DNA from: Caballeronia sp. NK8 | GTDB taxonomy: Bacteria; Pseudomonadota; Gammaproteobacteria; Burkholderiales; Burkholderiaceae | Direction of reading: 5' to 3' | NCBI RefSeq assembly: GCF_018408855.1 | Contig: NZ_AP024326.1 | Location: 310,001-374,000, forward strand | DNA: 64,000 nucleotides | Shown here: positions 39,586 to 57,483 of the stretch, in pieces | Layout: each line of letters starts with the position of its first letter | How positions within the stretch are numbered: position 1 is the stretch's first letter | The notes under the pieces: model-generated | The model's input: the letters and a program-made list of their open reading frames with translations, nothing else | The model's database searches: none | What the model was told of the DNA's origin: nothing | Position numbers and translations under genes: made by a program

Positions 39586-39616
39586 TCCGATATTCCTCCT
39601 GTCCAGGATGCAACTC

Positions 39617-39641
39617 GACCAGACTGCCTGGCAGTCTGGTC
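39617..39641. promoter_or_regulatory. Perfect 12-bp inverted repeat, candidate TetR operator
   Basis: Arms GACCAGACTGCC and GGCAGTCTGGTC are separated by one base. The site lies about 25-50 bp downstream of the -10 element and 32 bp before the acyl-CoA dehydrogenase ATG, an ideal place for repression. The TetR gene at 39801-40469 is adjacent. No T-run follows on either strand, so it is not a typical terminator. Confidence 0.62.
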
Positions 39642-39666
39642 ACCTCAATTGTAGATATAAATACCA

Positions 39667-39722
39667 AACATAGGTCACGATACAAATTACAACATGGAAA
39701 AAAAAGACGGGTATTCCCTGTC
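39667..39722 (-). promoter_or_regulatory. Shared-architecture promoter, copy b (acyl-CoA dehydrogenase/etf unit)
   Basis: Minus-strand -10 TATGTT (39667-39672) overlaps GACCTA (39671-39676). Exactly 33 bp upstream lies the palindrome read on the plus strand as GACGGGTATTCCCTGTC (39706-39722), with one arm imperfect. No good -35 is present, which suggests an activator bound at the palindrome. Confidence 0.65.
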
Positions 39723-39800
39723 CTTCTTATCCGGATCGCGACTAAATGTTTCTTCTATGGCCTGTTCACGCTTCCAGCCAGCCCTAAACAATCTTCGCGT

Positions 39801-40469
39801 CTATCGCGTTTCCCCAACCAAGGTATGCGCGATCTCGAACAACTTCGCCTCGAACTTTCGCATGTACGCCCGGCTACTGCGCACGGTGCCCAGATGGAAG
39901 GTCACGCCGTCGAGCATGGAAATGAGCAGCACTGCGATGTGCGCGCTCTCGGCGGCTCCACGTGCCGGATTTGCGGCATGAATGAGATCAGCAACTTGAC
40001 TTGTCAAGGTGTCGTACCAGTCGTTGCGCATTTGCGCGCACTCGGGGTCAGTAGACGCAAACGAAAAGAAATGCCACCACAGCGAGATGTACTCTGAGTC
40101 CTTGGCGTCCTGCACCGACTGATGGAGAATGGCGTCGATCGTCGCACGCGGCGAAGCATTGCTTTGGAGCGCCCGCTTCAACGCATCGAAATATGTGTCG
40201 ATCGCGGGTAGCATGACCGCCCGCAGGACGGCAGAGCGTGTTGGGAAGTAATACTGGAGGTTGCTGACACTGATTCCCGCACGCAAAGCAACGGCGCGCA
40301 GCGAGAACGCCATGGGCCCACTCTCGAGCAAAAGCTTCCTTGCCGCACGGATGATGGCATTGCGCGTACGTAAGCCTTGGGCGCGCAGGCCATCAGCGGG
40401 ATGTCCCAAGGAAGAGGCTGCGCCCGATGCGCGCCGCTTACGGGGACTGGGCTCTTTTCGCACTGTCAT
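39801..40469 (-). CDS. TetR/AcrR-family transcriptional regulator
   Basis: A 222-residue regulator. A basic N-terminal extension (RKEPSPRKRRA) is followed by the TetR HTH with LRAVALRAGISVSNLQYYFPTRSAVL-type residues (hallmark SxxxLQYYF) and an all-helical ligand domain. GGGAGGG precedes the ATG at 40469; the frame to 40580 is not needed. It lies between the DadA-like gene and the acyl-CoA dehydrogenase gene, all on one strand, and next to the operator candidate at 39617-39641. It likely represses the acyl-CoA dehydrogenase/etf unit until a pathway intermediate binds. Its HTH resembles the two HTHs of the tandem regulator at 57784-59202. Confidence 0.88.
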   Translation of the reverse strand: MTVRKEPSPRKRRASGAASSLGHPADGLRAQGLRTRNAIIRAARKLLLESGPMAFSLRAVALRAGISVSNLQYYFPTRSAVLRAVMLPAIDTYFDALKRALQSNASPRATIDAILHQSVQDAKDSEYISLWWHFFSFASTDPECAQMRNDWYDTLTSQVADLIHAANPARGAAESAHIAVLLISMLDGVTFHLGTVRSSRAYMRKFEAKLFEIAHTLVGETR

Positions 40470-40729
40470 CGCTTTCCCTCCCGAGTGAGGTGTACGCCCC
40501 CGCCGGGGCCGTAATGCAGTCACGATTGCGCCCAAGGTACACATGGCTTCGAGCACATCGGGACGTACCTCCGTCCGCATAGTGCGTGCGCCGCAACGTC
40601 CGATCGCACTCCTCCTGACCTCGGTTCGTTTTTCCGGTCATCGCGCCTCTCACCCTCTGCGTTCAACAAGACAGATTCGAAACGTGGTCGATACGTATCC
40701 ACTGCAAGCGTCTCGTCACGCAACGCCGG

Positions 40730-42241
40730 TTACGACATTCGCGCCTGCGCAGCGCGAACCTTGCTGTTCACACGCTCGTCGAGCGCGTTCACCACACCCA
40801 GCGCCCCCGTCATGACGCACCATCGCAGGGGCTCAGGCAGCATCGATGGCGTCTTGTGATCTAGCGCCGAAAGCAGCGGATTGTCGGTGCCGCGAATCCG
40901 CCCTGCAATCATGCTTCCGACCATCGATTGCGAGGCCACGCCGTGGCCGGAGCATCCGGCGCTGTAGAAGATGTTCTGATGCGACCCAATGGTCCCGACA
41001 ACGGGTAGCGCATCATTGGCCAGGCTGATGTAGCCGCTCCAGCATGCCCGCAGCGCGACGCCCTTGAGTGAGGGAAAGCGGTCATGCAGGGCCGTGCGCA
41101 GCTCGCGGTATGACTCGTAGTCGGGCACGTTCGGTGTTTTGGAGCCGTACGGATAATGGATTCGCTTCGTCGTGACCACGAGCGTGTTGTTCACGGTCAA
41201 GCGATGGCTTTCCATGGTCCAGTGTGCCGTCACGATCCCTTCGCGTCGTGGCCAGCCTAAGGCCTTGCGCTGAGGCTCGGAGAGCGGCCTAGTCTCGATC
41301 GCCGAGACCCGCAACGGTACGACTTTGTCTGCAAGCAGGCCGAGTTGCGGCGTATAGGCGTTGGTGGCCAGCATCATAGCCGGTGCGCTTGCACTTCCGC
41401 GCGGTGTTTGCACCTTGATGACAGACCCTTCCGTGTAGGACAGCAGCGGCGTATTCTCGAAAATCCTCACGCCTGCCCGAAGCGCTGCGCGCCTGAGCCC
41501 CATCACATACTTGCCGGGGTGAAGCGTGCCGCCGCGCGACACGTAGTTGCCAAACAGAAACGCGGGCGGAATGCCGCGTGCACGCATCTCAGCCTGATCG
41601 AGAAATTCCGACTGACAGCCCAATTCGGCGCCGGTTCGCATGCTTTCGCGCACCTTATCTTCCTGCGAGGGATCGATGCCCGCACGGATAATGCCCGTCT
41701 GATTGTAGTCGCAGTCGATCTCGTACTCTTTCAGCTTGCCCTCCACGAAGGGGACCGCGTCCTCGTAGTAGCGAACGATCTCTTTCCCTTTCTCGTTGCC
41801 TATGTTCTTGAGAAAGAGATCATATTCGAGCCCGAGTGCGCCGGCCAGATAACCCGCGTTGCGTCCGCTTGCACCAAAGCCCGCAAACTCGCGCTCGAGC
41901 ACGACCACGTTCGCGCCGTGCTTGACGAGTTCAAGCGCCGCCGATAGCCCGGCAAAACCCGCGCCGATGATGACCACATCCGCATTCACGTCGCCCACGA
42001 GTTCTGGTTGCAAGTCGTCTGGCCTTTCCACCCAGACTCCAAGCGCGCGGTATTTCTCCATGTCAGAGGCCATTCTGGCTTCTTCCACTGGACTACCTGA
42101 TTCATTGCTCGAGCATTGTGTAGCCGCCACTGCCGGCGCCACTACGGCTGCCGCCGCCGCACCCTTGAGGAACGTGCGGCGGTTCACTGCAGAACGAGAG
42201 TCAGCTTGCTGTTCTGCCTGTGTTTCCGTCGTCTCACTCAT
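40730..42241 (-). CDS. FAD-dependent oxidoreductase, DadA/PuuB type, Tat-exported
   Basis: A 503-residue D-amino-acid-oxidase-fold (DAO) protein. The Tat signal NRRTFLKGAAAAAVV ends at AATQC, which could be a lipobox (Tat lipoprotein) or a plain signal peptide. The FAD site is VVIIGAGFAGLSAALEL, and AGCSGHGVASQSMVG is the C-terminal DAO signature of gamma-glutamylputrescine-oxidase-like enzymes. It should oxidise a secondary or primary amine outside the cytoplasm. It follows the thiolase gene by 10 bp, so it is the last gene of the saccharopine-ligase-thiolase-oxidase unit. Confidence 0.85.
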   Translation of the reverse strand: MSETTETQAEQQADSRSAVNRRTFLKGAAAAAVVAPAVAATQCSSNESGSPVEEARMASDMEKYRALGVWVERPDDLQPELVGDVNADVVIIGAGFAGLSAALELVKHGANVVVLEREFAGFGASGRNAGYLAGALGLEYDLFLKNIGNEKGKEIVRYYEDAVPFVEGKLKEYEIDCDYNQTGIIRAGIDPSQEDKVRESMRTGAELGCQSEFLDQAEMRARGIPPAFLFGNYVSRGGTLHPGKYVMGLRRAALRAGVRIFENTPLLSYTEGSVIKVQTPRGSASAPAMMLATNAYTPQLGLLADKVVPLRVSAIETRPLSEPQRKALGWPRREGIVTAHWTMESHRLTVNNTLVVTTKRIHYPYGSKTPNVPDYESYRELRTALHDRFPSLKGVALRACWSGYISLANDALPVVGTIGSHQNIFYSAGCSGHGVASQSMVGSMIAGRIRGTDNPLLSALDHKTPSMLPEPLRWCVMTGALGVVNALDERVNSKVRAAQARMS

Positions 42242-42251
42242 AACTACTCCA

Positions 42252-43493
42252 TCAAATCTTGCTTAGAATGTGGACCGCGAGCGCGGCTTCCTCGACACCC
42301 TGAAAGCCGCCGCCGTTTTCCTGAATCGCGTGACGCGCGCCGGGAACCTGCCGCGGGCCCGCTTCTCCACGCAGTTGAGTAACCAGTTCATAGAGCTGAC
42401 CGATTCCCGTCGCACCCAACGGGTGGCCTTTCGATTCGAGGCCGCCGGACGTGTTGATGGGGATGCGGCCGCCGAGCGTGAACTCGCCGCGCTCGGCAGC
42501 GGGTCCGCCCTCGCCGAACGGTACGAGCCCGAGATTTTCGGCCTGGATGATTTCGCCCATCGCTGAGGCGTCGTGCACCTCCGCCACATCCACGTCCTCT
42601 GGACCGAGTCCCGCCTGGTCGTATGCCTGAAGTGCCGCGAGGCGGCCGATGTTCTTCTCTGGCTCGTCGATACGTCGATGCGTGAAGCTGCGGATCACGC
42701 TCGCCGCAATCCTGACGCACCGGCGACGGTCGGCGCCGATGCGTCGCAAGCCCTCCTCGGTACACACGATCGCCGCCGCCGCGCCGTCCGAAACCGGCGC
42801 ACACATGGGCAGCGTGATCGGATACGTGATCGGCGGTGCGGCGAGCACTTCGTCGATGGTGAATGGCTGTCGGAACTGCGAATACGGGTTGTGCACCGAA
42901 TGCAGGTGATTTTTCGCCGAAACCGCAGCGATCTGCCGTTGCGTGGTTCCGTAAGTCTTCATGTGATACCTGCACAGCGCGGCATAGACCGACATGAAGC
43001 GGCTATACGGCCGGTCGGACTCCGACCCGGGTGGCGGCTCGATGCCTTCGCCGAGCCTCATCAGACTGGCGAAGTTCTCGTCGACGCGCGACACATCCCA
43101 GCCCGCCCCGAACAAGGCGAATGACTTCGCCTTGTCCGGGACGTTCATCTTCTCTGCGCCGAGCGCGAGAACTACATCGCAGGCACCCGACCGAAGCGCC
43201 TGGGCCGCGAGATGCACCGCGGTGCTCCCGGATGCGCAGGCGTTTTCGACGTTGTAGACCGGGATGCCTTCAATCCCGATCTTGCTGAACACGATCTGCC
43301 CCGGAATGGACAGTTGGCCCTGCAGCGGCCCGTTGGTGATGCCAGCATAGAAAGCCGCGCCGATCGCCGCGGCATCGCAACCCGCATCCTTCAATGCGCC
43401 GCGTAGCGCTTCGCCCGCGAGATCGTCGATGCTGCGCTCGCAGTGACGGCCAAACATGGTCATCGCAATGCCCGCGATGTAAATGTCGCTCAT
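42252..43493 (-). CDS. Thiolase family protein, SCP2/lipid-transfer type
   Basis: A 413-residue thiolase. The nucleophile cysteine is in VENACASGSTAVHLA, the second-domain EVHDASAMGEI and GGLESKGHPLGATGIGQ carry the conserved histidines, and the C-terminus has QENGGGFQG where biosynthetic thiolases have a second catalytic cysteine. This pattern defines the SCP-x/SCP2-thiolase branch, which cleaves branched or steroid-like 3-oxoacyl-CoA chains and sometimes acts as a retro-aldolase-type partner. It follows the acyl-CoA ligase by 24 bp. It is clearly different from the housekeeping thiolase at 60480-61676. Confidence 0.87.
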   Translation of the reverse strand: MSDIYIAGIAMTMFGRHCERSIDDLAGEALRGALKDAGCDAAAIGAAFYAGITNGPLQGQLSIPGQIVFSKIGIEGIPVYNVENACASGSTAVHLAAQALRSGACDVVLALGAEKMNVPDKAKSFALFGAGWDVSRVDENFASLMRLGEGIEPPPGSESDRPYSRFMSVYAALCRYHMKTYGTTQRQIAAVSAKNHLHSVHNPYSQFRQPFTIDEVLAAPPITYPITLPMCAPVSDGAAAAIVCTEEGLRRIGADRRRCVRIAASVIRSFTHRRIDEPEKNIGRLAALQAYDQAGLGPEDVDVAEVHDASAMGEIIQAENLGLVPFGEGGPAAERGEFTLGGRIPINTSGGLESKGHPLGATGIGQLYELVTQLRGEAGPRQVPGARHAIQENGGGFQGVEEAALAVHILSKI

Positions 43494-43517
43494 GGTGTTT
43501 TTCTCAAATTGACTGAC

Positions 43518-45071
43518 TCAGATCCGTCGGCCTTGACCCTGCCAGTACTGCTCGCGCAGATCTTTCTTCAGCACCTTGCCGGCGGTGCTACGCGGCAGTG
43601 CCGCAATGAAGTCCACGCTCTTCGGTGACTTCACCGAGCCGAGTTTCTCCTTGCATAACGCCACGAGCTCTTCTGCACTGACGCTCTGACCGGCGTTGAG
43701 CTCCACCACCGCCTTCACCGCCTCACCCCACTTGTCGTCGGGGACCCCGATCACCGCGCAATCCTGTACTGCCGGGTGCGCCCAGATCACCTGTTCGACT
43801 TCGCTCGGGTAGACATTGAAGCCACCGCTGATGATCATGTCCTTCTTGCGGTCGGTGATGTACAGATATCCTTCGTCATCCAGATGACCGACGTCGCCGG
43901 TGCGCAACCAGCCGTTCACGATCGTTTCGGCGGTTTTGTCGGGCGCCTTGAAGTAGCCCTTCATCACGAGGTCGCCACGTACGCAGATTTCGCCGGTTTC
44001 GCCCCGAGGTAGGAGCTCGCCACGATCGCTCATGATTTCGACGCGAATCAGCGGATTGGGTCTGCCCACCGACGAAAGCCGGCTTTCCGGAGCAAGCGCG
44101 CCATCTACGAAGTGCTCGGCCGGCGTGAGATAGGAGATCGACGCCGGGGCTTCCGTCTGACCATATCCGCCCGCCATGATCGGACCGAACACCTCGATCG
44201 CGCGCTTGAGCTTCTCCACCGACATGGGTGCCGCTCCATACAGAAAGCATTTGAGCGAGGAGAAATCCTGGTTCTCGATACCGGGGATATCGAGCAGGCG
44301 GTAGATCACCGTCGGCGGCAGGAAGAACTCCGTCACCCGATGTTTCGCGATCGCCGCGAGCAGCGGCGCCGGCTCTGGCTTGGGCAGTACGACCACTGTG
44401 CCGCCGCGGGCGGTGCACGGCAGCGAGAGCATTCCCGCGGTATGGGTCATAGGCGCCGCCGCAAGATTCACCGGACGCTCCACGCCATACGGAAACGCAA
44501 TCATGAACTGCGCGAAATAGGTTTGAAACGCGCGATGCGTGTTCATCACCCCCTTCGGCAAACCCGTCGTTCCGCCCGTGGCAGAAAGCGTCACGATGTC
44601 GTCCATGTCGTACTCGACGCTCGGCCCGGTCGCAGGTTGCGCCGCGCTCCATGTCTCGAGCGATGGCGCCCACGGCAGATCGGCATCGATACAGACCCAG
44701 AGCCTCACTTTGGGCAGGCTGGGACGCAGCGCCTCGATTGCCGGTGCGAATGCCTGATGAAAGAACAGCGCTTCGCAATCGAACGCGTCGAGGAGGTACT
44801 GGTTCTCCTGCGGCGCGTTGCGCCCGTTGACCGGGATCCACACCACCCCTGCGCGCCACAGCCCCAGCGTGCAGGTCCATGCCGTGACGTCGTTATCGGC
44901 CCAGACCGCCGCCTTCGCTTCTTTTTCGAAGCCTGCCTCGAGCAGTCCGTTAGCGATACGGCACGACAGCGCGTGAACTTCACTGAACGAATAGCTTCGC
45001 TCGTCCTGAATGTAGGCGATGCCGTTGGGATTGATACGCCAACCGCGATCGAAAAAGTCAATGATTGCCAT
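43518..45071 (-). CDS. AMP-forming acyl-CoA synthetase/ligase
   Basis: A 517-residue member of the adenylate-forming family. The P-loop motif is in LSATGGTTGLPKGVMNTH, followed by GGYGQTEAP (A5), the hinge and A7/A8 region WLRTGDVGHLDDEGYLYITDRKKDMI, and the C-terminal catalytic lysine in PRSTAGKVLKKDL. It activates a carboxylic acid with ATP and CoA. The ATG at 45071 is preceded by GGGAC. It is the second gene of the unit starting with the saccharopine-dehydrogenase-like gene, 47 bp downstream of it. Acid specificity cannot be told from sequence. Confidence 0.92.
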   Translation of the reverse strand: MAIIDFFDRGWRINPNGIAYIQDERSYSFSEVHALSCRIANGLLEAGFEKEAKAAVWADNDVTAWTCTLGLWRAGVVWIPVNGRNAPQENQYLLDAFDCEALFFHQAFAPAIEALRPSLPKVRLWVCIDADLPWAPSLETWSAAQPATGPSVEYDMDDIVTLSATGGTTGLPKGVMNTHRAFQTYFAQFMIAFPYGVERPVNLAAAPMTHTAGMLSLPCTARGGTVVVLPKPEPAPLLAAIAKHRVTEFFLPPTVIYRLLDIPGIENQDFSSLKCFLYGAAPMSVEKLKRAIEVFGPIMAGGYGQTEAPASISYLTPAEHFVDGALAPESRLSSVGRPNPLIRVEIMSDRGELLPRGETGEICVRGDLVMKGYFKAPDKTAETIVNGWLRTGDVGHLDDEGYLYITDRKKDMIISGGFNVYPSEVEQVIWAHPAVQDCAVIGVPDDKWGEAVKAVVELNAGQSVSAEELVALCKEKLGSVKSPKSVDFIAALPRSTAGKVLKKDLREQYWQGQGRRI

Positions 45072-45118
45072 GTCCCATGTGTCCCTGGATCGGTTTCGAA
45101 TCTCTGTTCTCGCGGCCG

Positions 45119-46252
45119 TTACAGTTGGGCGACTGTCGCGCGCGCGAGCCCGCGCTGCTCGAGGAACCCAAGCAGGTAGCGATGGCCGAATGCCTTCGAA
45201 CCGGATGCAAAGCCAACCTTCGCGGTGTCGCCGTCGAGAAGCTTGGCAATACCGGCGGCATGAATGGCTCCGGTGGCGATATACGGCGTGATGCCGTGCA
45301 CGGTCGCCCGAACTGCCGCAAGCTGACCGCGGCCGATCGCAAAGTCGACAGTGCGATGAAGCGACGTGCGCTCGCGCGGCGGCATCGACGGTGTCACGGA
45401 ATCGACAAGCTGTTTGAGTACCGTATCCTGCTGCTCACGTGGCAGGTGTGCGTATTCCGCATCCCACTTCTGACTGAGCCCATGCACCATCTGCATTGCG
45501 TTGTTGTCGTAGAAGCCAACGCACGAGATACAGCTGCGCACGCGGGGATCCTGCTCGAAATACACCGGCAGCGAGGTGCCGCCCCACGGCAACGCGAATA
45601 CTGGTTGCAGAAAATCGGGGGAGGCAACATTGAACGAAGCGTGCTTGTCATGCGGCACCAGCTTCTTTTCCCATAGATAGCAAGATTCCTGGCGATAGCC
45701 TCCGAAGATGGTCGCCGTAGAGCCCACGCTCACACCGGCGCCGGCACCGCGCGGGCCGCGCGTCAAGGTCGCCGTCTCCAGCGCATCGACGCCAGGCGTC
45801 TCGAGTGCCAGCTCGGCGGCAATTTCCGCAAACGTGTACATGTACGCGTTTGACGGCGACAACAGTAGACCGGCCTGACGGTAGGGTTCGCCAAACTGTT
45901 CGCGTGCCTGGCGGATAAAGTGTTGCTCGCCGGTGGTGTCGAGGTAGTGACAACCGGCCTTGATTGCCGCCTCCACCGCGACCAGGCCGAAATCGAAGAA
46001 CGGCCCGACGGTGGCGCACACGACCTTCGCGCCGCGAAAGGCATTCGCAAGCGAATCGACGTTGTGTTCGGCCTCGATGATTTCGTAGCTCGCAGATTCG
46101 AGGCGCACGACCCGCTGCGCCATCATTTCCTGCGTACGCCTTGCGTTGCGCGCCACAGCGGTAAAAGGAATGTTCTGGTCGATCAGCCAGTCCATGATCA
46201 ACATGCCGGTATAACCACTTGCGCCATATACAACGACGGGATGCTTTGCCAT
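45119..46252 (-). CDS. Saccharopine-dehydrogenase-like oxidoreductase
   Basis: A 377-residue Rossmann protein: VVYGASGYTGMLIMDWL, VCATVGPFFDFGLVAVEAAIKAG, YLDTTGEQHFIRQAR, then a long C-terminal domain. It belongs to the saccharopine dehydrogenase / trans-acting enoyl reductase group, which reduces or oxidises C=C or C=N bonds with NAD(P). AGGAGACAGGC precedes the ATG. It heads the unit that continues with ligase, thiolase and DadA-like oxidase. The shared-architecture promoter lies at 46384-46439. Only the fold, not the sequence detail, is shared with the protein at 11963-13207. Confidence 0.8.
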   Translation of the reverse strand: MAKHPVVVYGASGYTGMLIMDWLIDQNIPFTAVARNARRTQEMMAQRVVRLESASYEIIEAEHNVDSLANAFRGAKVVCATVGPFFDFGLVAVEAAIKAGCHYLDTTGEQHFIRQAREQFGEPYRQAGLLLSPSNAYMYTFAEIAAELALETPGVDALETATLTRGPRGAGAGVSVGSTATIFGGYRQESCYLWEKKLVPHDKHASFNVASPDFLQPVFALPWGGTSLPVYFEQDPRVRSCISCVGFYDNNAMQMVHGLSQKWDAEYAHLPREQQDTVLKQLVDSVTPSMPPRERTSLHRTVDFAIGRGQLAAVRATVHGITPYIATGAIHAAGIAKLLDGDTAKVGFASGSKAFGHRYLLGFLEQRGLARATVAQL

Positions 46253-46383
46253 GCCTGTCTCCTAGAAGGTGATTGGGTTCAACGGTGCGTCTTTCAAATG
46301 CGGCGGATGCCGGCGGCGGTGACGAGCTCCGCTATCAGAGAATGCAGCGATGATGCAGGTCCATTTTATAGAACATCGTATCT

Positions 46384-46439
46384 AACATAGTCATAGTCTA
46401 CAAACATTTTAAGTTTAAAAAAGACAGGTATTTCCTGTC
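46384..46439 (-). promoter_or_regulatory. Shared-architecture promoter, copy c (saccharopine-like/ligase unit)
   Basis: Minus-strand -10 TATGTT (46384-46389) with the palindrome GACAGG-TATTT-CCTGTC (46423-46439) exactly 33 bp upstream. The run between is A/T-rich. The GACCTA element is present only in a one-base-shorter form (GACTA). Confidence 0.68.
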
Positions 46440-46470
46440 CTTAGACCTCTTTTCGGTTACGCGATGGTTG

Positions 46471-47157
46471 TTATTCAGCGCCTGCGCCTGCGTTGCTGCC
46501 GACCGGCGTCAGACTGGCAAGATAGCTGGCCACCGCCTTGACGTCTTCGCCCGACAGAGTGCCCGCCAACCCATTCATTGCGCCGCTCGGGTCATGACGC
46601 TCGCCGGTCTTGAATGCAGCAAGCTGCCTCACGAGATAGGTCTCTCCCTGTCCCGCCAGACGCGGAATCTGGTTTTCCCCCATGAACGCCGCTCCGTGGC
46701 ACGCTTGGCAACTTTTTTCTGCCACGAGTTCCATACCGCGCTTCTCTAGCCCGGCTTGAGTGCGCGCCGGCTCGCTTCGGGCCGGAGTCTGCCGCGCAAA
46801 ATAGGCACCCAGTGATTTGATCTGTTCGTCGGTCAGATCCCTTGAAATCGGCCCCATATAAGCGTTGGGCCGTTCCCCGTCAGCGAAGGCGCGCAATTGG
46901 GCGATGAGATAAGCCTGTGGCTGTCCTGCCAGCGACGGATACCAGGCGTTCGCGGACTGCCCGTGCGCACCGTGGCAGAAATAGCAGGTCTCTTGCGGTT
47001 GCGGCCAGGAGCCACCGTTGGCCACTTGCAACCTGTCGATCTCGTTCATCGCTTTTTCGAAATGCATACCGTCCAGGTACTCGCGTCCGTAAAGCGCTCC
47101 CACGCCCACCACAGCGGCGAGCCCGACGACTCCACTTACGATCCATGCCCGTCTCAT
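46471..47157 (-). CDS. Membrane-anchored diheme cytochrome c (c4-like), paralogue
   Basis: A 228-residue cytochrome with an N-terminal helix (about residues 5-23) and two haem motifs, C58-Y-F-C61-H62 and C150-Q-A-C153-H154. Repeats WYPSLAGQP and IPRLAGQG and late Met residues (AYMGPIS, AMNGLAG) mirror the protein at 33891-34550, so both come from one ancestral gene pair. Its ATG directly abuts the stop of the flavin oxidase (TGA then ATG with no gap). It is the likely electron acceptor of that enzyme. Confidence 0.88.
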   Translation of the reverse strand: MRRAWIVSGVVGLAAVVGVGALYGREYLDGMHFEKAMNEIDRLQVANGGSWPQPQETCYFCHGAHGQSANAWYPSLAGQPQAYLIAQLRAFADGERPNAYMGPISRDLTDEQIKSLGAYFARQTPARSEPARTQAGLEKRGMELVAEKSCQACHGAAFMGENQIPRLAGQGETYLVRQLAAFKTGERHDPSGAMNGLAGTLSGEDVKAVASYLASLTPVGSNAGAGAE

Positions 47158-48657: not shown

Positions 48658-48724
48658 GTTGCCACTCCTGTTTCAATTATATGCAGTACTGCGATATACA
48701 CATGCGGCAGGAAATGCAGCATGC

Positions 48725-49690
48725 TCAAGGCCTCACCAGCACACCGTCCTGCGAAAACAGCAACGGCTTTCCGGTGCGATCGATCACTGCGGCTGTGAGG
48801 GACGCACGATCCGCGCGCTGTTGAACCTCGAACGAAGTACTGCCCTCGCGTTGCCGGAAAACAAGGCCATCGAGCCCGACGCCCATCAGTCCATTCCCGG
48901 TCGTCAAAAGATCAGTGATCGAACTCTTCGTGCCCGCGTTCAACGCCGTCCATGTCGCCCCATCGTCGCTGCTCTGGTACAGGCCGCCCAGCAAACCGCC
49001 TACGATGATTCGGCCGTCGGGCAGCGCCACGCCCGTCCACAGCGTCCCTTTGCCGCCCGTCGCCTGATAATTCCAGTTCGCCCCGCCATCCGTGGACTTC
49101 AGCACCATTCCCTGCTCAGAGTCGATGTAAAGCACACCGTGACGATCAGAAAAGACGTGGTAAAGGTTGCGGTCGGCACGACCACTACCCGGTGGTTTCG
49201 GCACACTCACTTTCGTCCACGACTTGCCACCATCATGGGTGACGAGCATGAGTGACCATAGGCCCACCGCGATTCCGTCCCGAGCAGTAGTAAAGAGCAC
49301 GGAGAACAACGGCTGGTCAACTGAGAGGTCTATCCGCTGCTTTTGCCATGTCTCGCCGCCGTCGCTCGTCGCGAGAATCACGCCCCACTGTCCGACCGTC
49401 CAGCCGTGCTGCGCGTCGGCAAAAGTGACCGCAGAAAGGGTTGCGGAAACCGGAACATGGTTTGACTGACGCCACGTTTTTCCCTCGTCATCTGACATCA
49501 CGACTACGCCGTGCTCCCCTACGGCAACGATGCGCGAACCGGCACGCGCCGCGTCCATCAACATCATGTGCCTCGGCGCTGTCCAGGCATGCGCGGGTTT
49601 GGCCGCCCAGTCCGCGACCGCTCCCTGTGCTTGAGCGAAGGCCGCGACGCTCGCACACAAGGCCGCGCCGGCAACAAACATCTTGATCAT
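48725..49690 (-). CDS. YCF48-like beta-propeller protein, exported
   Basis: A 321-residue protein with a Sec signal peptide (KMFVAGAALCASVAAFAQA) followed by a BNR/YCF48 propeller with repeated S-D-D-G-x-T/N-W units: DDEGKTW, SDGGETW, HDGGKSW, TDGGANW and DDGATW. The name comes from photosystem II assembly factors, but heterotrophs encode such propellers next to MMPL/RND transporters and DUF1302/DUF1329 proteins. It probably forms a periplasmic part of that transport module. It follows the transporter gene by 13 bp; GGAGACC precedes the ATG. Confidence 0.86.
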   Translation of the reverse strand: MIKMFVAGAALCASVAAFAQAQGAVADWAAKPAHAWTAPRHMMLMDAARAGSRIVAVGEHGVVVMSDDEGKTWRQSNHVPVSATLSAVTFADAQHGWTVGQWGVILATSDGGETWQKQRIDLSVDQPLFSVLFTTARDGIAVGLWSLMLVTHDGGKSWTKVSVPKPPGSGRADRNLYHVFSDRHGVLYIDSEQGMVLKSTDGGANWNYQATGGKGTLWTGVALPDGRIIVGGLLGGLYQSSDDGATWTALNAGTKSSITDLLTTGNGLMGVGLDGLVFRQREGSTSFEVQQRADRASLTAAVIDRTGKPLLFSQDGVLVRP

Positions 49691-49703
49691 GATTGGTCTC
49701 CAG

Positions 49704-52064
49704 TCAGTGGCTGAAAAGCCCCGGCGCGCGCGCCGGCTTGCGGCGCGGAAACCAGCGCTCCAGGACCGACGCCAACGCCGGCAGCGCGGTCATCGCCATC
49801 AGCAGGTTCACAAGGAACATGAACGCCAGCAGCTTGCCCATGTCCGCCTGAAATTTCAGTGCTGAGAAGCTCCACGTCGCCACACCGATGGCCAATGTGA
49901 TCGCCGTGAAGATCGTCGCTACGCCGACCTCGAGCATCGCGTGCTGCACCGCCTTCACAATGTTCTGGCCACCCGCTAGATGCACCTGCAAGCGGTTGTA
50001 GATATAGAACGCATAGTCCACGCCAATACCTACGGCCAGTACCATGACCGGAAGCGTCGCCACCGTCAGCCCGATTTGCAACTCCTTCATGAACCAATAA
50101 CCAATGAAAGTTGCGACCGTGAGCGGCAAGCAGCACGCCAGCATTGCACGCCAGTCACGGTAGGCGAGGAACACCAAAATCAGGATGGCAGCGTAGACAT
50201 AGAGCATCATCGGCAACTCGCTCTTCTCCACCTCTTCGTTGATGGCCGCTAGCACGCCCGCGTTTCCCGCCGCAAGCCGTACATTGATACCCGGAAATAC
50301 GTGCGATGCGCGGTATTGCTTCACGTCGTCCAGGATTCGGCTAATCGTCGTGGCCTTGTGATCGGTGAGAAAAAGATGAACCGCTGTCATGCCACAATTG
50401 GCCTTCATGAAGCCCTTCACTCGGCCAGCATCCACCGAAACCGCTCCGTAGTTTTCGGGGTCGATCGGCACAACGTTCATCTTCGGATAGTCTTCGTTAT
50501 AGCCCTGGTTGTAGCGGCGCAGCATCCCGGCGTATGACTGCACTGACACCACGCCGGGCTCGTCACGCAGCGTGCTCGTCAGATCGTCTTCGTAGAGTCC
50601 GACAGCAGGGTTGTCGCATGCCTTGCCTCCCGACTCGATTGCGAGCGTGAGCCAATCGAGGCCAATGTCGTAGTTCGCCGCGATCGACGTCGCATCTTGG
50701 TTGAAGCGCGCATCCGCACGCAGTTCGGGCGCACCCGGCTGAAGCGTACCGATCACGCGGTCGCGGCTTTGCCAGGCAGAGAGAGCGAAAACCACGAGCG
50801 TCAGCGCCACGGTCACGCCTGCATAGCGCGGCTGGGCGATGCGGGCGAGTCCACGCAACCATGACGAGCGCCGCTCGCTGCGTTTGAGTGCGCTGTCCGC
50901 ATAGCTCTTTGTGAAGTGAAAGCACGAAGCGGCGACGGGCAGCAATACGAGGTTCGTCACGATTTTGTAGCCGACGCCGAGCGACGCAGTAATAGCCAGC
51001 TCGCGCACCATGGGAATCGGAATCAACAGCAGCGTGATGAAAGACACGAATGCGGTGACGAGGGCCAGCACACCCGGAATCAGCAAACCGCTGAAGCTAT
51101 GGCGCGCCGCATCAAACGAACTGTTGCCATGCGCGATCTCACGCACGATGAAGTTGACCTGCTGCACGCCGTGCGACACGCCAATCGCGAAAACCAGGAA
51201 AGGCACCAGCACGGCGAGCGGATCGAGGCCGAATCCCAGTAGCTTAAGCGTCCCGAACTGCCAGACCAGTGACGTGAGGGAACATGCGATCAGCAGCACC
51301 GTGAAGCGAATCGAATGGCAGTACCAGTAGACCGCGAGCGCAGTCAACAGTAGTGCGATGCCGCAGAAACCGAGCACGGCCGTGGCGCCATCGGCGATAT
51401 CGCCAATTTGTTTCGCGAAGCCGATGATCTGGATCTCATAGCCTGCGTCCTCGAACGGCTTGCGGATCTGCGCCTCGAGCAGGTGATTGAACTTGACATA
51501 GTCGAGCACCTTGCCGTTACGGTCGCGCTCGTTGAGCTCGGCCGTGATCATGGCGCTGTCTTCGTTATGCGAAACAAGCGTTCCGACGTAGCCGCCCTGG
51601 GTGGTCGCATGCCGAATCGCGGTGACAAGCTCGGGCGTCAGTTGCTCAGGCGTGATGGTGCCTGAGATGATCGGCTCGGCGCGAAAACCTTCATCAGTGA
51701 TCTCGTTCACGTATGCGTTCGGCGTCCAGAGCGACTGCACGCCGATCCGATCCACGTTCGGCAGATACGTCACCGCCTGAGTCACTCTATATAGACGGGT
51801 GAGCCCTTCCTTCGTCCAGATGGAGCCGTGGCGAGATCGTACGACGAAGGTTATCCGGTTCGCACCGAGCAGGTCGGAGCGATATTTCTGGAACGTCCGG
51901 ATGTACTCGTGACCGATCGGCATCTGCTTCTCGAACCCCGCGTCCATGCGCAGTTGCACGGCGAACACGGCCATGGCGACCGTAAATACCCCGACCGTCA
52001 CAAGCACCGCTGCTCGGTGTCCGAAGCACAATCTTTCCAACGTTTTAACCAGGCGATTTAGCAC
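49704..52064 (-). CDS. RND/MMPL-family transporter
   Basis: A 786-residue MMPL-type transporter. It has an N-terminal helix (VLVTVGVFTVAMAVFAV), a large periplasmic domain to about residue 230, five helices, a second periplasmic domain and a second helix cluster with VMVLAVGIGVDYAFYIYNRLQ, the hallmark of proton-driven lipid exporters of the MmpL/HpnN class. It starts with GTG (52064) behind AGGGA. It moves hydrophobic molecules across or out of the inner membrane. Encoded between DUF1302 and YCF48 genes, a combination repeatedly associated with catabolism of hydrophobic substrates. Confidence 0.88.
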   Translation of the reverse strand: MLNRLVKTLERLCFGHRAAVLVTVGVFTVAMAVFAVQLRMDAGFEKQMPIGHEYIRTFQKYRSDLLGANRITFVVRSRHGSIWTKEGLTRLYRVTQAVTYLPNVDRIGVQSLWTPNAYVNEITDEGFRAEPIISGTITPEQLTPELVTAIRHATTQGGYVGTLVSHNEDSAMITAELNERDRNGKVLDYVKFNHLLEAQIRKPFEDAGYEIQIIGFAKQIGDIADGATAVLGFCGIALLLTALAVYWYCHSIRFTVLLIACSLTSLVWQFGTLKLLGFGLDPLAVLVPFLVFAIGVSHGVQQVNFIVREIAHGNSSFDAARHSFSGLLIPGVLALVTAFVSFITLLLIPIPMVRELAITASLGVGYKIVTNLVLLPVAASCFHFTKSYADSALKRSERRSSWLRGLARIAQPRYAGVTVALTLVVFALSAWQSRDRVIGTLQPGAPELRADARFNQDATSIAANYDIGLDWLTLAIESGGKACDNPAVGLYEDDLTSTLRDEPGVVSVQSYAGMLRRYNQGYNEDYPKMNVVPIDPENYGAVSVDAGRVKGFMKANCGMTAVHLFLTDHKATTISRILDDVKQYRASHVFPGINVRLAAGNAGVLAAINEEVEKSELPMMLYVYAAILILVFLAYRDWRAMLACCLPLTVATFIGYWFMKELQIGLTVATLPVMVLAVGIGVDYAFYIYNRLQVHLAGGQNIVKAVQHAMLEVGVATIFTAITLAIGVATWSFSALKFQADMGKLLAFMFLVNLLMAMTALPALASVLERWFPRRKPARAPGLFSH

Positions 52065-52109
52065 AGCTTTGATCCCTAAGTTGATTCAACGACCCACGGC
52101 ATCGAGCCA

Positions 52110-53939
52110 TCAGAAGTTCCGTGTCACGAACATCCCTACAAAGTTGCGGTCTGCATATGGCTGACCCCCGGTGTTGTGTCCGCCCCAGAACAACGTGTAG
52201 TTGATGCCCGCCTGCCACGTGGCCGGGTTCTGGTTGAAAAGCACATAAAGGTTCAGCGACTTCGCGCCCTGCAGGTAGTTCGCGCTGAGCGTCGGCGTAT
52301 AGCCGTAGAGTCCGGTGGCGAACGTGACGCCTGGCGTCACCTGCCAGCCGCGGATCAGTGTGCCGTCGTAGGTCCAGTTGAAGTCGATGGTCGCGCCTAC
52401 TGAGCTCGATGTGCCCTGCGCCATCCCGATCGGATAGCCAAGATTCGAGGTGTTGTTCAGCCAGGGAAAATAGCCCGCCTGCGGCACCTGCGTAACCACT
52501 TGTCCGTCGACCGTACGGGTGACGCCCTGCGAGCTAAGACCCGGGTAGTAGACCCAGGTCAGCTCTGCAGTCAACGTCGCGGAATCCGCACCGATCAACT
52601 TGAGAAACGGATACTCGCTGCGCGTCAGGGCCAGGATGCCGTTGATGTCGAACTGGAACCGCTTCATGTCGGCCCACTGCTGACAATTGACGCCCGCCAC
52701 GCCGTTCGTGTTCAGGTCGGGTGGGCCGCCCGCGCCATAGCAGCTCGACAGCGCCACGGCGTCATGTGGCCGATATGACAGCTCGGTGCCAATAGCCCAG
52801 TCCCCCAGCCCGAAATTCGCGCTCAAGCCGAAGAGCTGGCGGTTCTGAAGATACGACCACTGCTCGGTCCCATTGGCCAACGATGAAAGCACCGGCGACT
52901 TGTCCGTGTAGTTGACGTAGTAAAACGCGAAGTTCGCACCGAAGGAGCGCGGTGAAAAGTTAAGCTTGAAACCGAACTGTGGTTTGTACTTCGATGGCGA
53001 CTGCCATGAAACCGGGAGCCCGATATCGTTGAAAGGGGGGCCAGCATACGTGCCGTTCACGAGGCCCGTGTTAATTCCGTCGAGGACATTCTGGTTGCCA
53101 CTGTTCGGTCCGGCGATCGTGCCCGCACTTGGACCGGCTACATTCAAGTTGTTCGTGCTGATGGTGAGCGGCTGCGTGCCACGCCCGAGGCTGTTCGTTG
53201 TCGACCAGTACGATCCGACTGGCGGGTAGCGGTTTCCGTTCCACTGAAACTGGTAGTATTCCTCAGTGCTGAAACCATGTGAAAGATCGGCGGCGAAGCT
53301 CACCATCGGTGCAGGAAGGAGCGCCTGCTTGAGTTGCGAACCCGGCACGAGCAGCTTCTGGATGTCGAGCGAGTTCGTCGCGTTGATCCCGCCCATCGCG
53401 TACATGCTCTCGCCCCAGTTGATCACCTGGTTGCCGAGCCGCACGTGCGCGGCATTCCCGGCAATGGTGAAATCCTTCTCGGCCCACAGATCGAGCAGTT
53501 GCGCATCGTAGACGACCTGCGCCGACGCGGTGCTCGACAATGGCGTTCTTGCCGTATCTTTCGCGAGGAAGTCGTACATGCCCGTGCCCCGGATCATGAA
53601 CTTGAGCCCTTCGCTCGGCATCTTCATCAGCAACTCGCTCGTCGCGCTGGCGTAGGCGCTGTATGCCTGCCCCTTGCGGTAATTCAGATCGCCGTTATCG
53701 CCGAAACCCCATTGATTGGTGTTGGCCCCCGCTCCGCAACCCGCGGAATTGGGGTCGCCAGTGAGAGAGCAACTCGGATTCTTGGTCCGGATCCCCGCAC
53801 CCGCCGTCAGGTTGGTCACCCACGAGCCTGTGAGATCGTTGATCCCGGTCGTGAAGTCGTAACCGTACGCACTTGATGCTGCCGTGCCGAATATGGCCAG
53901 CGATACCGCAACATACCTGCCGATTATCTTCGTTGTCAT
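52110..53939 (-). CDS. DUF1302-family outer-membrane protein
   Basis: A 609-residue protein with a signal peptide ending near SSAYGYDF, many amphipathic beta-strands and a C-terminal phenylalanine (FVTRNF), typical of outer-membrane beta-barrels. VRLGNQVINWGESM is the DUF1302 hallmark. It probably forms a channel or lipid-binding barrel for hydrophobic compounds. The ATG at 53939 is used because the signal peptide starts there; the open frame reaches 54131. It follows the DUF1329 gene by 76 bp, the usual neighbour. Confidence 0.87.
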   Translation of the reverse strand: MTTKIIGRYVAVSLAIFGTAASSAYGYDFTTGINDLTGSWVTNLTAGAGIRTKNPSCSLTGDPNSAGCGAGANTNQWGFGDNGDLNYRKGQAYSAYASATSELLMKMPSEGLKFMIRGTGMYDFLAKDTARTPLSSTASAQVVYDAQLLDLWAEKDFTIAGNAAHVRLGNQVINWGESMYAMGGINATNSLDIQKLLVPGSQLKQALLPAPMVSFAADLSHGFSTEEYYQFQWNGNRYPPVGSYWSTTNSLGRGTQPLTISTNNLNVAGPSAGTIAGPNSGNQNVLDGINTGLVNGTYAGPPFNDIGLPVSWQSPSKYKPQFGFKLNFSPRSFGANFAFYYVNYTDKSPVLSSLANGTEQWSYLQNRQLFGLSANFGLGDWAIGTELSYRPHDAVALSSCYGAGGPPDLNTNGVAGVNCQQWADMKRFQFDINGILALTRSEYPFLKLIGADSATLTAELTWVYYPGLSSQGVTRTVDGQVVTQVPQAGYFPWLNNTSNLGYPIGMAQGTSSSVGATIDFNWTYDGTLIRGWQVTPGVTFATGLYGYTPTLSANYLQGAKSLNLYVLFNQNPATWQAGINYTLFWGGHNTGGQPYADRNFVGMFVTRNF

Positions 53940-54015
53940 GGTCTGCCCCACCGTCCCTCTCCCTGCCGGCGCACGCGTGTGACGTGCGCCGGGTCCTTTG
54001 TGCCGACGTCGGATG

Positions 54016-55377
54016 TCAGCGCTCGCTCGCCGAACGCAACGATTCCGCGGTGTAGAAGTCCACCTTGAAGCGAGGATTGTCGACATGCTCGTACCAGCGA
54101 ATGTCCTTGCCCTGCCCGATGGACGATGCATCCAGCACGTAGCGTCCGTTGATCAGGTCGTATTGCACGAAGGGCTCGTTGTCGCAGGCCCCGCCCAACT
54201 CCCACACTGGGATGGGGTAGCTTTCGCGTACCTTCCAGAGCTTGCCCTGCGCGTCGTAGTCTTCGCCGACCAGCGCGAGCCAGCTGTCTTCATCCAGATA
54301 GAAGACTTTCTTCGATGCGACGTGGCGTGCCGTAGGCTTGAGCGTGGCCTCGACGACCCAGACACGGTGGACCTCATAGCGACGGTGATCAGCTGCGATC
54401 CCTTCGGGAGTCGCAACGTCGTGCAGCTTCGTCTTGAAGCTGTACATGCCGAAGTCGTTGTACGGGACGATCATTTCGCGCTTGCCCACCAGCTTCCAGT
54501 TGAAACGGTCGATGGACCCGTTGAACATGTTCGATTCATCGATTAGGTACTGGTTTTCGAAGCCGATCAACGGCGCATCGTGCGTATAAGCGGGCATGCG
54601 TCTCACACGGCGCTGACCCGGAAAATAGTAGTAGGTCTCGGAATCCTTATCGAAGAACTGGCGCTGTACGAAGGCCTGTCCAGCTAATGCCGCGGGTGAG
54701 TTGACGGAGAAATAGGCACCCAGATTGAACTGATCGACGTCCTGCGGCGACGTCTTGCCTTCCTTGCCCGCTGGAAAATAAAAGGTTTGGGGACCCACTG
54801 CGTCGATCCAGTCACTGCTGCCGGGACGCGGGGAAATCGCCGTGACAACCGGGGACCACTCCACTCCCTCGCCGCGGTACCGTGTCTCATAGTTGAGGAT
54901 CGCTTCGGCGCCACTCTTTGGCTGCGGAAATGCCACTCCGGGGAGGGTCGCCGCTTGTACTGTCTCGCCATTCGAAGCCAGTTTCGCGGTGGTGAGATTG
55001 GCCGTGGAATTTTGCTCGGCGAATTCCGGCAACTGACATTCGCGGTGGGACGGATAGACGTCCATCCGATAACCCTTTTGCTGTTTGATCAACTGGATCT
55101 CGCCCGGGGAGAGCTTGTCCGCGTACTTGTCGACGTTTGCCGTGTCGATCGAATAGAGCGGCTTCTCGTCCCGGTGTTTCCAGAAGTCGCCGCGCATCTT
55201 GCCCCACTCCCAACCTGCCGGCGTGGCTTGCCTCCCGGCAAACGCCGGCACCAATCCGTCCTTGCTGGCCGCGCGTTCGGCGCCTACCGGCGTAAGTTCC
55301 TCAGCAACGGCCGCTCCGCCCGCAAGCAAGAGCGCCGCGGCGATGGCCGACAATGTTCCAATAGTGTGCTTTCTCAC
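54016..55377 (-). CDS. DUF1329-family exported protein
   Basis: A 453-residue protein with a Sec signal peptide (TIGTLSAIAAALLLAGGAAVAEE) and the DUF1329 fold, a LolA/LolB-like concave beta-sheet thought to bind lipids. Hallmarks include DYPSHRECQLPEF-type residues, QYLIDESNMFNGSIDRFNWKLVGKREM and DEDSWLALVGEDYD. The GTG at 55377 with AAGGAG 7 nt upstream is chosen; the open frame to 55548 overlaps untranslated sequence. It precedes the DUF1302 gene and likely works with it in carrying hydrophobic substrates across the envelope. Confidence 0.87.
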   Translation of the reverse strand: MRKHTIGTLSAIAAALLLAGGAAVAEELTPVGAERAASKDGLVPAFAGRQATPAGWEWGKMRGDFWKHRDEKPLYSIDTANVDKYADKLSPGEIQLIKQQKGYRMDVYPSHRECQLPEFAEQNSTANLTTAKLASNGETVQAATLPGVAFPQPKSGAEAILNYETRYRGEGVEWSPVVTAISPRPGSSDWIDAVGPQTFYFPAGKEGKTSPQDVDQFNLGAYFSVNSPAALAGQAFVQRQFFDKDSETYYYFPGQRRVRRMPAYTHDAPLIGFENQYLIDESNMFNGSIDRFNWKLVGKREMIVPYNDFGMYSFKTKLHDVATPEGIAADHRRYEVHRVWVVEATLKPTARHVASKKVFYLDEDSWLALVGEDYDAQGKLWKVRESYPIPVWELGGACDNEPFVQYDLINGRYVLDASSIGQGKDIRWYEHVDNPRFKVDFYTAESLRSASER

Positions 55378-55457
55378 CGCAATTCTCCTTCTGATCTCAT
55401 CATAATTAGTAGTACATATCGCGGAAACGTCGGAGCTGGCGTTGTAGAGCAAAGCAC

Positions 55458-55871
55458 TCAGCTCTCGCCGCAGCTTGCCACTGCTACCGCTCTGATCTCG
55501 ATGCACAACTCCGGTAGCGCCAGTTGGGTCACGCCAACGGCCGTCCACGAGGGATAGCGTGTCGGGAAGTACGCGTCCTTGACCGTCGAAAAGGCCTCCA
55601 TTTCCCCTCGCAGGTCCGTGTGAAAGGTGGTCAACTCCACGACGTCGGCCAGACTCGCCCCCGCCGTTTCAAGCACGACCTTCAGGGACTCGAAGGCGAT
55701 GCGTGCCTGCGCCTGCATGTCCTCGCCGGCTTGCATATCCGGGCCGATGCCGACCTGACCAGAAACCCAAATGGTGTCGCCGACTCGGGTTGCGGGTGAA
55801 AAATGAAAAGTGTCGTAGAACGCCTGAAACGGCGGCGGGATAATCGATTGCCGCGAAGTGGACTTTGTCAT
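55458..55871 (-). CDS. RidA/YjgF/UK114-family protein
   Basis: A 137-residue RidA-superfamily protein. It has TIWVSGQVGIGPD, LASLADVVELTTFHTD-type residues, YPSWTAVGVTQLALPELCIEIRAVAV and a C-terminal CIEIRA arginine that binds the carboxylate of imine substrates in true RidA. RidA hydrolyses enamine/imine products of PLP and flavin amine-oxidising enzymes. The ATG at 55871 gives the family length; the longer frame to 56210 lies inside the dioxygenase gene. No strong ribosome site, but it starts 20 bp after that gene. A cluster with three amine-oxidising flavoproteins makes an imine hydrolase sensible. Confidence 0.86.
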   Translation of the reverse strand: MTKSTSRQSIIPPPFQAFYDTFHFSPATRVGDTIWVSGQVGIGPDMQAGEDMQAQARIAFESLKVVLETAGASLADVVELTTFHTDLRGEMEAFSTVKDAYFPTRYPSWTAVGVTQLALPELCIEIRAVAVASCGES

Positions 55872-55891
55872 GGTGGTGATGGTCGGTGTGG

Positions 55892-56725
55892 TCAGACGAG
55901 TTGACGGAAACAGGGTGCGCGAAACGGATCGCCGTCTTTCAACGCGGCAAGTTCTTCGAGGAATAGAACTCCGGCCGACGTGAACCCCGACACGCTCGGT
56001 TGCGGCAGCGGACTGAAAACCGCGTCGTCGCCGAAGAAGCGCAGCACAAGTGTGTGGCGAGTCGGAAATGCCGCGTCCACCGCTCCGCCGCCATGGAGCA
56101 CGCCCGGATGCAGGAGCAGAACATCGCCGGGCTCCGTCTCCCACGAAATGATGTCGTACGCAGCCGGGTTGCTGCGGCGCTCCGCTTCGATATTTGGCAG
56201 GCGCGGCCAAACATCCCCGCCATGCAAAGGGTCAGTGGGATCGTCCGCATTCTGAAAAGTGGTGCCGTCATGACGCGTGCCGCGATGCGAGCCCTTCACG
56301 ATCTCGAGCGCATTCTGCCGGGGAACAGCCTCGAAGCTGATCCAGGCATTGCCAAAGTGCTTGCCCTCCCATGGCAGGTAGGAAGTGTCCTGATGCCAAG
56401 GCGAGCGTCCGCTTGTGCCACCAGCCTTGAGAAACAACTCTTCGGCGAAATACCAAACGTGCTTCGATCCCCAGAGATCGGCGAACAGTTCGCCAAGCGG
56501 TAGCCTGCCGACCAAATCATCCAGGCGCGCCTTCGCGTAGGGATTGGCGTTGTCGTTGTGCGATTTCTGCGCGGTGCCATCGAACAGTGTCGTGGCCATT
56601 GGTCCCGGATTCTCGATACCCCAATCGAAGACGTGCCGACAGAGGGCCAGTTGCTCTCTGTTGAGGAGGCCTTTTATCAGGATCGCGCCATCTTCGGCGA
56701 AAGCCCTATGCCCGAATTCATCCAT
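55892..56725 (-). CDS. Phytanoyl-CoA dioxygenase family protein (Fe(II)/2-oxoglutarate oxygenase)
   Basis: A 277-residue jelly-roll oxygenase. Iron ligands are H111 and D113 in WHQDTSYLPW and the distal histidine H211 in HPGVLHGGGAVD, with R226 (FPTRHTLVLRFF) suited to bind 2-oxoglutarate. Such enzymes hydroxylate fatty-acyl chains or small natural products. The ATG at 56725 has GGGAG 7 nt upstream, better than the TTG at 56728. It heads the large unit that continues with RidA and probably the DUF1329-DUF1302-MMPL-YCF48-oxidase-cytochrome genes. The shared-architecture promoter lies at 56805-56861. Confidence 0.87.
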   Translation of the reverse strand: MDEFGHRAFAEDGAILIKGLLNREQLALCRHVFDWGIENPGPMATTLFDGTAQKSHNDNANPYAKARLDDLVGRLPLGELFADLWGSKHVWYFAEELFLKAGGTSGRSPWHQDTSYLPWEGKHFGNAWISFEAVPRQNALEIVKGSHRGTRHDGTTFQNADDPTDPLHGGDVWPRLPNIEAERRSNPAAYDIISWETEPGDVLLLHPGVLHGGGAVDAAFPTRHTLVLRFFGDDAVFSPLPQPSVSGFTSAGVLFLEELAALKDGDPFRAPCFRQLV

Positions 56726-56804
56726 CAATGTTCTCCCGGCTCTTCAGTCGACGGTCCAAGCGCGAGCGCGCGCCGGACGATGCCCGTACTAGAAAACTGT
56801 GGTA

Positions 56805-56861
56805 ATCATAGGTCATCATGACAAAGAAAAACTGAAATCAAAAGACAGGGTATTCCCTGTC
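56805..56861 (-). promoter_or_regulatory. Shared-architecture promoter, copy d (dioxygenase unit)
   Basis: Minus-strand -10 TATGAT (56805-56810) next to TGACC. Exactly 33 bp upstream is the near-perfect palindrome GACAGGGTATTCCCTGTC (56844-56861, plus-strand reading). This is the cleanest of the three copies. Confidence 0.7.
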
Positions 56862-56945
56862 GTTCATCTGATTTGCCTCGAAAATGTCGAGAATTGGGCC
56901 GTCCGCCGACGACCACGACGGACCCGCGTTTTTTAACGCTGACCG

Positions 56946-57137
56946 TCAATAATCACGATGAAGCGGATGATCAGCGCGGTCGTCGGAAGTTTCGCTCGAG
57001 ATCGACTGGAGCAAGTTGTCGGCAAAGCGCTGAAGGGCCTGGAAAGACCCGTACACGCTCTTGTACTCCACGCGGCCGATCCGGCCATCGAGCACGACCA
57101 GCATGCCCGAATCATTCGCAAGCCTTTCGATATCCAT
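56946..57137 (-). CDS. Small protein of unknown function (63 residues)
   Basis: A short frame starting MDIERLANDSGMLVVLDGRIGRVEYK and ending in an acidic/basic tail. AAGGGG stands about 7 nt before the ATG at 57137. It lies 38 bp downstream of another small gene on the same strand, in the space between the dioxygenase promoter and the tandem TetR gene. The hydrophobic strand MLVVLDG followed by a charged helix suggests a small folded protein. I do not recognise the family. Confidence 0.55.
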   Translation of the reverse strand: MDIERLANDSGMLVVLDGRIGRVEYKSVYGSFQALQRFADNLLQSISSETSDDRADHPLHRDY

Positions 57138-57175
57138 CACGTTTCCCCTTCGAAACGAAGAAAAACCCGCAGTCC

Positions 57176-57424: not shown

Positions 57425-57483
57425 TGCCTGCTCCTTCTTGTCAGCCCCCAAACAACTGCGGATAAATGTTAATACGGTTTAAC

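Follow-up and report, generated by a model that had tools for sequence, protein, structure and literature searches.

A conserved promoter module with an upstream palindrome in a catabolic gene cluster of Caballeronia sp. NK8, and its candidate TetR-family regulators

In a catabolic gene cluster of Caballeronia sp. NK8, three operons start behind nearly the same short palindrome, here called element A. What does this palindrome do, and which protein would read it? The cluster lies in a stretch of 64,000 nucleotides (contig NZ_AP024326.1, positions 310,001 to 374,000), which is referred to below as the window. The answer that is somewhat favoured from sequence comparison is that A would be a sequence-specific protein-binding site and make up the upstream part of a composite promoter, where a dimeric regulator, most likely of local origin, would recruit RNA polymerase. 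In the best reading of the data the cluster forms a local regulon that is new but belongs to a known kind. One link in it is unusual: symmetric and asymmetric upstream elements go with single and fused TetR regulators, respectively.

The Composite Promoter in the Window

A first-pass annotation of the window had reported three palindromes, one of them with an imperfect arm, and all three lie at the reported places (Table 1). Sites 2 and 3 are perfect palindromes, and site 1 has one arm mismatch (a T absent from one arm). As had also been described, each palindrome precedes one catabolic unit (acyl-CoA dehydrogenase (ACAD)/etf, DUF5938/ligase/thiolase and PhyH dioxygenase/RidA) and has, exactly 33 bp away on the minus strand, a TATGWT -10 box that reads TATGTT at sites 1 and 2 and TATGAT at site 3. 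The reported lack of a good -35 was borne out by a sigma-70 scan of positions 38500-58000, in which none of the three sites is listed with a -35/-10 pair.

The palindrome is rare, as had been predicted: GACAGG-N3..7-CCTGTC has two matches in the window (sites 2 and 3) and none in 100 dinucleotide shuffles. The intact palindrome (spacer 3-8) occurs in the 9.2-Mb genome only at these two sites and at their copies on contig C7, and a search for the palindrome followed after 29 to 34 positions by TATG returned six places, namely the three window sites and their three C7 copies (the C7 copy of site 1 has a spacing of 32 bp, owing to a one-base difference). A chance origin of the palindromes, in favour of which it can be said that the window has three sites only, is of negligible probability, being refuted by the shuffles together with the conservation across species described below.

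The conserved unit is larger than the palindrome and its -10 box. A is followed directly by a T-tract, then by a linker of about 10 bases whose sequence is poorly conserved, and finally by element B (TTTGTCAT-N2-TGACCTA-N12-TGTTCTA). The -10 (TAnnnT) begins within TGACCTA, the second CTA lies 19 bp after the first, and the element spans both the -10 and the inferred transcription start. A fourth cluster promoter, before an FAD oxidoreductase/cytochrome c operon (FAD1), has a core that resembles element B with six mismatches, and the palindrome is absent from it. The first-pass annotation had overlooked this promoter and the larger size of the conserved unit, as well as the terminator shape of A with its T-tract, the TetR gene that tracks A and the core-promoter repeat as a possible repressor site.

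In the proposed mechanism, only operons of this cluster would use A, as the upstream part of their composite promoters. Its place would be about -46 to -63 relative to the start, always on one face of the helix, with the T-tract occupying part of the 33 bp that separate it from the -10. A dimeric regulator bound to A would most likely recruit RNA polymerase to promoters devoid of a conserved -35. Element B, placed over the -10 and the start, would probably be a second operator. It is this upstream place, the missing -35 and the rigid spacing that make an activator role of the A-bound factor plausible.

Conservation in Related Genomes

A scan with an alignment of DUF5938 proteins gave 79 named loci, the closest being that of Caballeronia megalochromosomata (100% in DUF5938). 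In loci of Burkholderia, Paraburkholderia, Caballeronia and Cupriavidus the module recurs with palindrome A (17, 18 or 19 bp long), T-tract, variable linker and element B, and with the same genes downstream. From 23 of these loci and the window, 48 palindromes with TTT directly after them were collected (50 rows minus two opposite-strand reads); these sites, like the genomes, are related by descent and thus not independent. An alignment anchored on the end of A, in which the -10 played no part, placed TAnnnT at 33 bp in 39 of the 48 and at 31-34 bp in 47, the next best offset being shared by 21 sites. The spacing is exactly 33 bp at 21 of 23 ACAD promoters, at 13 of the 18 scored DUF5938 promoters and at all four PhyH promoters. 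The 2.0 bits reached at -10 positions 1, 2 and 6 and at the first three T of the T-tract are a product of site selection and no evidence, but the loop of A is conserved at 1.2-1.5 bits although the search pattern left it free. The stretch where a -35 would be expected does not exceed about 0.7 bits, and its matches to TTGACA average 2.3 of 6, against 2.5 of 6 in shuffled sequence.

The module was not found in seven Pseudomonas-type genomes searched. In a family-wide sample of 398 genomes, a loose hairpin pattern matched 89, and among 30 loci taken from that search, 14 carry the module and lie next to the cluster's TetR1 (the regulator discussed below), ACAD or FAD1; the remaining 16 have other hairpins with T-tracts, mostly GGCAGGCC-N3-GGCCTGCC, and no cluster genes. 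A literature search found no paper on the promoter module. The promoter module is real, conserved and specific to the cluster, and the sequence data give good support to a cluster-specific regulon. Of the earlier proposal that an activator-bound site defines a regulon, the shared site and the regulon are strongly supported, since sequence, position and gene set are conserved in other species, and activation is plausible.

Element B, with up to five mismatches allowed, occurs at 50 sites in 24 of 38 loci from Burkholderiaceae and Massilia types (L007-L044), and it is absent from 41 loci (L045-L085) belonging mostly to Pseudomonas and in part to other Proteobacteria, and from shuffled sequences. 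Copies of B without A precede FAD1 in the window and, in other places, some of the DUF5938 and DUF1329 genes; a permissive search gave 131 matches, 70 of which have a palindrome-like stretch upstream, many of the others being due to chance. At the equivalent promoters of Pseudomonas-type clusters another motif, around AACAAGTGTTGCGTAA, was noticed by eye upstream of ACAD or DUF5938 (L047, L063, L073, L075, L076 and L081).

TetR1 as Candidate Factor on Palindrome A

The factor on A would most likely be local, with the TetR-family protein TetR1 as the leading candidate. Its BetI-like gene is the last of the run starting at site 2 and lies just upstream of site 1. Of 39 whole genomes with a DUF5938 locus, 26 gave a TetR1 match, and palindrome A was found in 23 of these and in none of the 13 lacking TetR1 (six Burkholderiaceae and seven Pseudomonas, Stutzerimonas or Marinobacterium). 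Whole-genome pattern search supplied 21 of the 23 genomes with A, the other two (G063 and G069) coming from a separate locus-level site listing, which means that the pattern can overlook variants. The recognition helix of TetR1 is nearly invariant (S[VI]SNLQYYF, with TVSNLQYYF in one Massilia copy). No other regulator conserved with the A-bearing promoters, hereafter class I, was recognised among the open reading frames (ORFs) in the gaps of L007-L044, as judged by eye from their translations; a Pfam scan covered nine gap ORFs (L119, L120 and L123).

Several observations weigh against an activator on A, and against TetR1 in that role. The three TetR1 genomes without an AT-centred A are Massilia/Pseudoduganella types with a TetR1 48-54% identical, in which the recognition helix is almost unchanged and element B is kept (L194-L196). 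Two of 25 DUF5938 loci with TetR1 (L023 and L041) have promoters of another class (class II, below) and no A in the fetched stretch, and a cluster with a TetR1 homologue (L011) has no A in the fetched stretches, A being present elsewhere in these three genomes. The same recognition helix is thus found without A both in L194-L196 and in L023 and L041. The TetR1 gene is moreover linked to the operons, so that its co-occurrence with A is partly trivial. The length of A varies from 17 to 19 bp, which is uncommon where a rigid dimer binds. At ACAD the start codon lies 80-87 bp from the -10 (87 at 16 of 23), a nearly constant distance, so that A is not alone in its constant spacing; at DUF5938 the range is 102 to 203 bp, and the contrast with the fixed spacing of A therefore helps only in part. 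Most studied TetR proteins are repressors, according to PMC3511530. Finally, A with its T-tract is terminator-shaped and folds at -11 to -12 kcal/mol. The assignment of TetR1 to A is accordingly put forward as tentative, having been lowered because of the locus-level exceptions; TetR1 is the best local candidate, and an unlinked activator is about as likely.

The Terminator Alternative

The fold of A invites a different explanation, in which A and the T-tract would be an intrinsic terminator insulating each operon from its upstream neighbour, the spacing being fixed through the joint spread of terminator and promoter as a single module. The stem is perfect or nearly so, the T-tract follows directly, and at ACAD and DUF5938 promoters A lies 25-145 nt 3' of the match end of a co-directional gene. 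At position 1501 of L137 and L138, TetR1 is followed by a GACAGGGCATGCCCCTGTC hairpin with a changed loop and a T-tract, and no promoter element comes next. A GC-rich hairpin replaces A behind TetR1 in L194 and L196 (Pseudoduganella/Massilia), the other B promoters there having a T-tract and no such hairpin; the GC-rich hairpin is followed in L196 by TAACTT at 34 bp and in L194 by TAAAAA at 32 bp, which is not a TAnnnT, the next TAnnnT being at 56 bp. In the window, a simple terminator scan flags site 3 (minus strand), which has a class II promoter of the same orientation 0.65 kb upstream, and neither of the other two sites, and Rfam families gave no match at gathering score.

Other sites fit this explanation poorly. 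A precedes PhyH in L027-L029 with a divergent gene upstream, and likewise FAD1 in Burkholderia arboris (L119), where a response-regulator gene at a distance of 109 bp is divergent. The loop of A is conserved, several DUF5938 sites keep GGGAATACCC while arm pairing falls to 4/6, and the class II element found at the same place forms no hairpin. Intrinsic terminators likewise have a GC-rich stem and a T-tract; A differs from them in its conserved loop, in its fixed distance to the promoter and in the existence of sites with no co-directional gene upstream. Termination as the full answer was rejected on account of the divergent neighbours, the conserved loop and the non-hairpin class II element, and is retained as an unlikely rival; A with its T-tract may nevertheless double as a terminator behind TetR1. 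The divergent genes of L119 (3048-4909) encode an OmpR-type response regulator and a histidine kinase.

Class II Promoters and the Tandem TetR Regulator

In the window, the gene that diverges from PhyH and site 3 encodes a tandem (double) TetR protein with two TetR_N stretches (Pfam). A search lists 93 related proteins, those named being from Burkholderia, Paraburkholderia, Cupriavidus and their kin. Its AlphaFold model is a compact two-domain chain (mean predicted local distance difference test score (pLDDT) 83.7, predicted template modelling score (pTM) 0.81), for which Mce3R is the only PDB fold matched with E below 0.001 (8e-8, 12% identity). The divergent position could suggest that the tandem TetR itself binds A; this is very improbable, as 13 of the 23 genomes with A have no tandem-TetR match at E 1e-40 (only 39 candidates being scored in many genomes) and as tandem-TetR genes are accompanied by other repeats instead of A. 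As a general binder of A the protein is largely refuted.

The repeats in question are direct TAGGTC/TAGGCC (TAGGYC) repeats with a 22-bp period, which adjoin the tandem-TetR gene in all 21 loci examined (L098-L118). Among distances of up to 60 bp between repeats, 22 bp was counted 21 times, 44 bp 12 times and all others four times. These class II promoters are also found before other genes, such as ACAD and DUF5938, in several tandem-TetR clusters, and the one in the window has a -35-like TTGATT 17 bp from TATTAT, unlike class I. An upstream element near GTGTTTTCCCT is present in 18 of the 21 loci, the exceptions being L108, L113 and L117. It is non-palindromic and forms no hairpin. Between the end of its CCCT and the -10 there are 36 bp at 20 of the 25 sites scored, and 35-37 bp at every one of them. 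The CCCT of A in class I ends 33+3 bp before the -10; the positions coincide, and both classes therefore carry an upstream element at one place.

Two explanations build on this coincidence. The first is that an unlinked activator common to both classes binds A, TetR1 and the tandem TetR acting as repressors on the core-promoter repeats. It is less likely than not, and finds favour in the likeness of A and the class II element A' in position and in their TACCCT/TTCCCT half, in the presence of element B with TetR1 in Massilia-type genomes without A and before DUF5938 in three genomes with a tandem TetR and no TetR1 match (L013-L015), and in the placement of B over the -10 and the start, as expected of a repressor site. 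Confinement of the site to this cluster suggests instead a local regulator, and the inspection of gap ORFs recognised no conserved class I regulator apart from the TetR genes. The second, a speculative proposal with a low probability, is that the same catabolic operons switched between two TetR-family regulators, their upstream sites changing symmetry: a TetR1 homodimer would activate on the palindrome at -46 to -63 and the fused tandem TetR on the asymmetric AGTCGGTGTTTTCCCT at the same place, keeping the half read by the TetR1-like NLQYYF domain and changing the half read by the ALQNYF domain.

Short reading frames were seen by eye on the minus strand at 56946-57425, between the tandem TetR gene and site 3 and 3' of the class II promoter; they are possibly remnants of a former gene.

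Relation to Known Systems

TetR1 resembles BetI-like local TetR regulators in its TetR_N and TetR_C_6 domains and in having its gene beside the putative targets, and the 17-19 bp of palindrome A come close to the 18-21 bp of typical TetR operators given in PMC11667970. Unlike in BetI-like systems, A lies far upstream of the -10, a position that would suit an activator, and not over the promoter; its spacer also varies in length. Mce3R of Mycobacterium tuberculosis (PDB 9b7y), described in PMC11667970 as a double TetR repressor with non-palindromic sites, would be the nearest parallel for the tandem TetR of the window, both having two TetR domains per chain and going with non-palindromic sites. 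The two proteins are only remotely similar in sequence, and the class II arrangement of 22-bp direct TAGGTC repeats plus A' differs from the two 25-bp Mce3R sites, which that source places 53 bp apart.

A literature search found no paper naming DUF5938. For the little-known pathway marked by this protein, the composite promoter described here is conserved and sharply delimited, and a regulator can be proposed. Activation by TetR1 from A, if it takes place, would make this protein an activator of the TetR family that works from a palindrome fixed upstream. Class I and class II together allow recognition by a TetR homodimer and by a fused TetR to be compared on the same operons, as nature provides them.

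Feature Coordinates and the Duplicated Region

Table 1. Features of the promoter modules and regulator genes in the window (positions counted from the first nucleotide of the window).
Feature	Coordinates	Strand	Remarks
Site 1, palindrome A	39706-39722	minus	GACAGGGAATACCCGTC; before ACAD/etf
Site 1, downstream parts	39652-39705	minus	T8 39705-39698; element B 39686-39652; -10 TATGTT 39672-39667
Site 2, palindrome A	46423-46439	minus	GACAGGAAATACCTGTC; before DUF5938/ligase/thiolase/DAO/TetR1
Site 2, downstream parts	46369-46422	minus	T6; element B 46404-46369; -10 TATGTT 46389-46384
Site 3, palindrome A	56844-56861	minus	GACAGGGAATACCCTGTC; before PhyH dioxygenase/RidA/DUF1329/DUF1302/RND
Site 3, downstream parts	56790-56843	minus	T4; element B 56825-56790; -10 TATGAT 56810-56805
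B-like core promoter without A	36221-36256	minus	-10 TATATT; before FAD oxidoreductase/cytochrome c operon (FAD1)
Class II promoter	57483-57565	minus	element A' 57565-57555; -35-like TTGATT and -10 TATTAT 57540-57512
Class II TAGGTC repeats, three, 22 bp apart	57533, 57511, 57489 (first bases)	minus	
TetR1, single BetI-like TetR regulator	39801-40580	minus	Pfam TetR_N and TetR_C_6
Tandem (double) TetR regulator	57787-59202	plus	start codon uncertain, ORF opens at 57526
Acyl-CoA dehydrogenase	38296-39585	minus	first gene 3' of site 1
DUF5938 saccharopine-dehydrogenase-like protein	45119-46252	minus	first gene 3' of site 2
PhyH-type dioxygenase	55892-56728	minus	first gene 3' of site 3

The whole region is present twice in the genome, at C5:309933-384320 (which comprises window positions 1-64000 and extends beyond them) and at C7:228001-302388. 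The duplicated stretch measures at least 74 kb, its left end lying beyond the part compared, which took in all but 2 kb of the C7 copy. Identity is 99.5-99.97%, with differences that are mostly insertions or deletions, and the second copy stems either from a large duplication of recent date or from an artefact of assembly.

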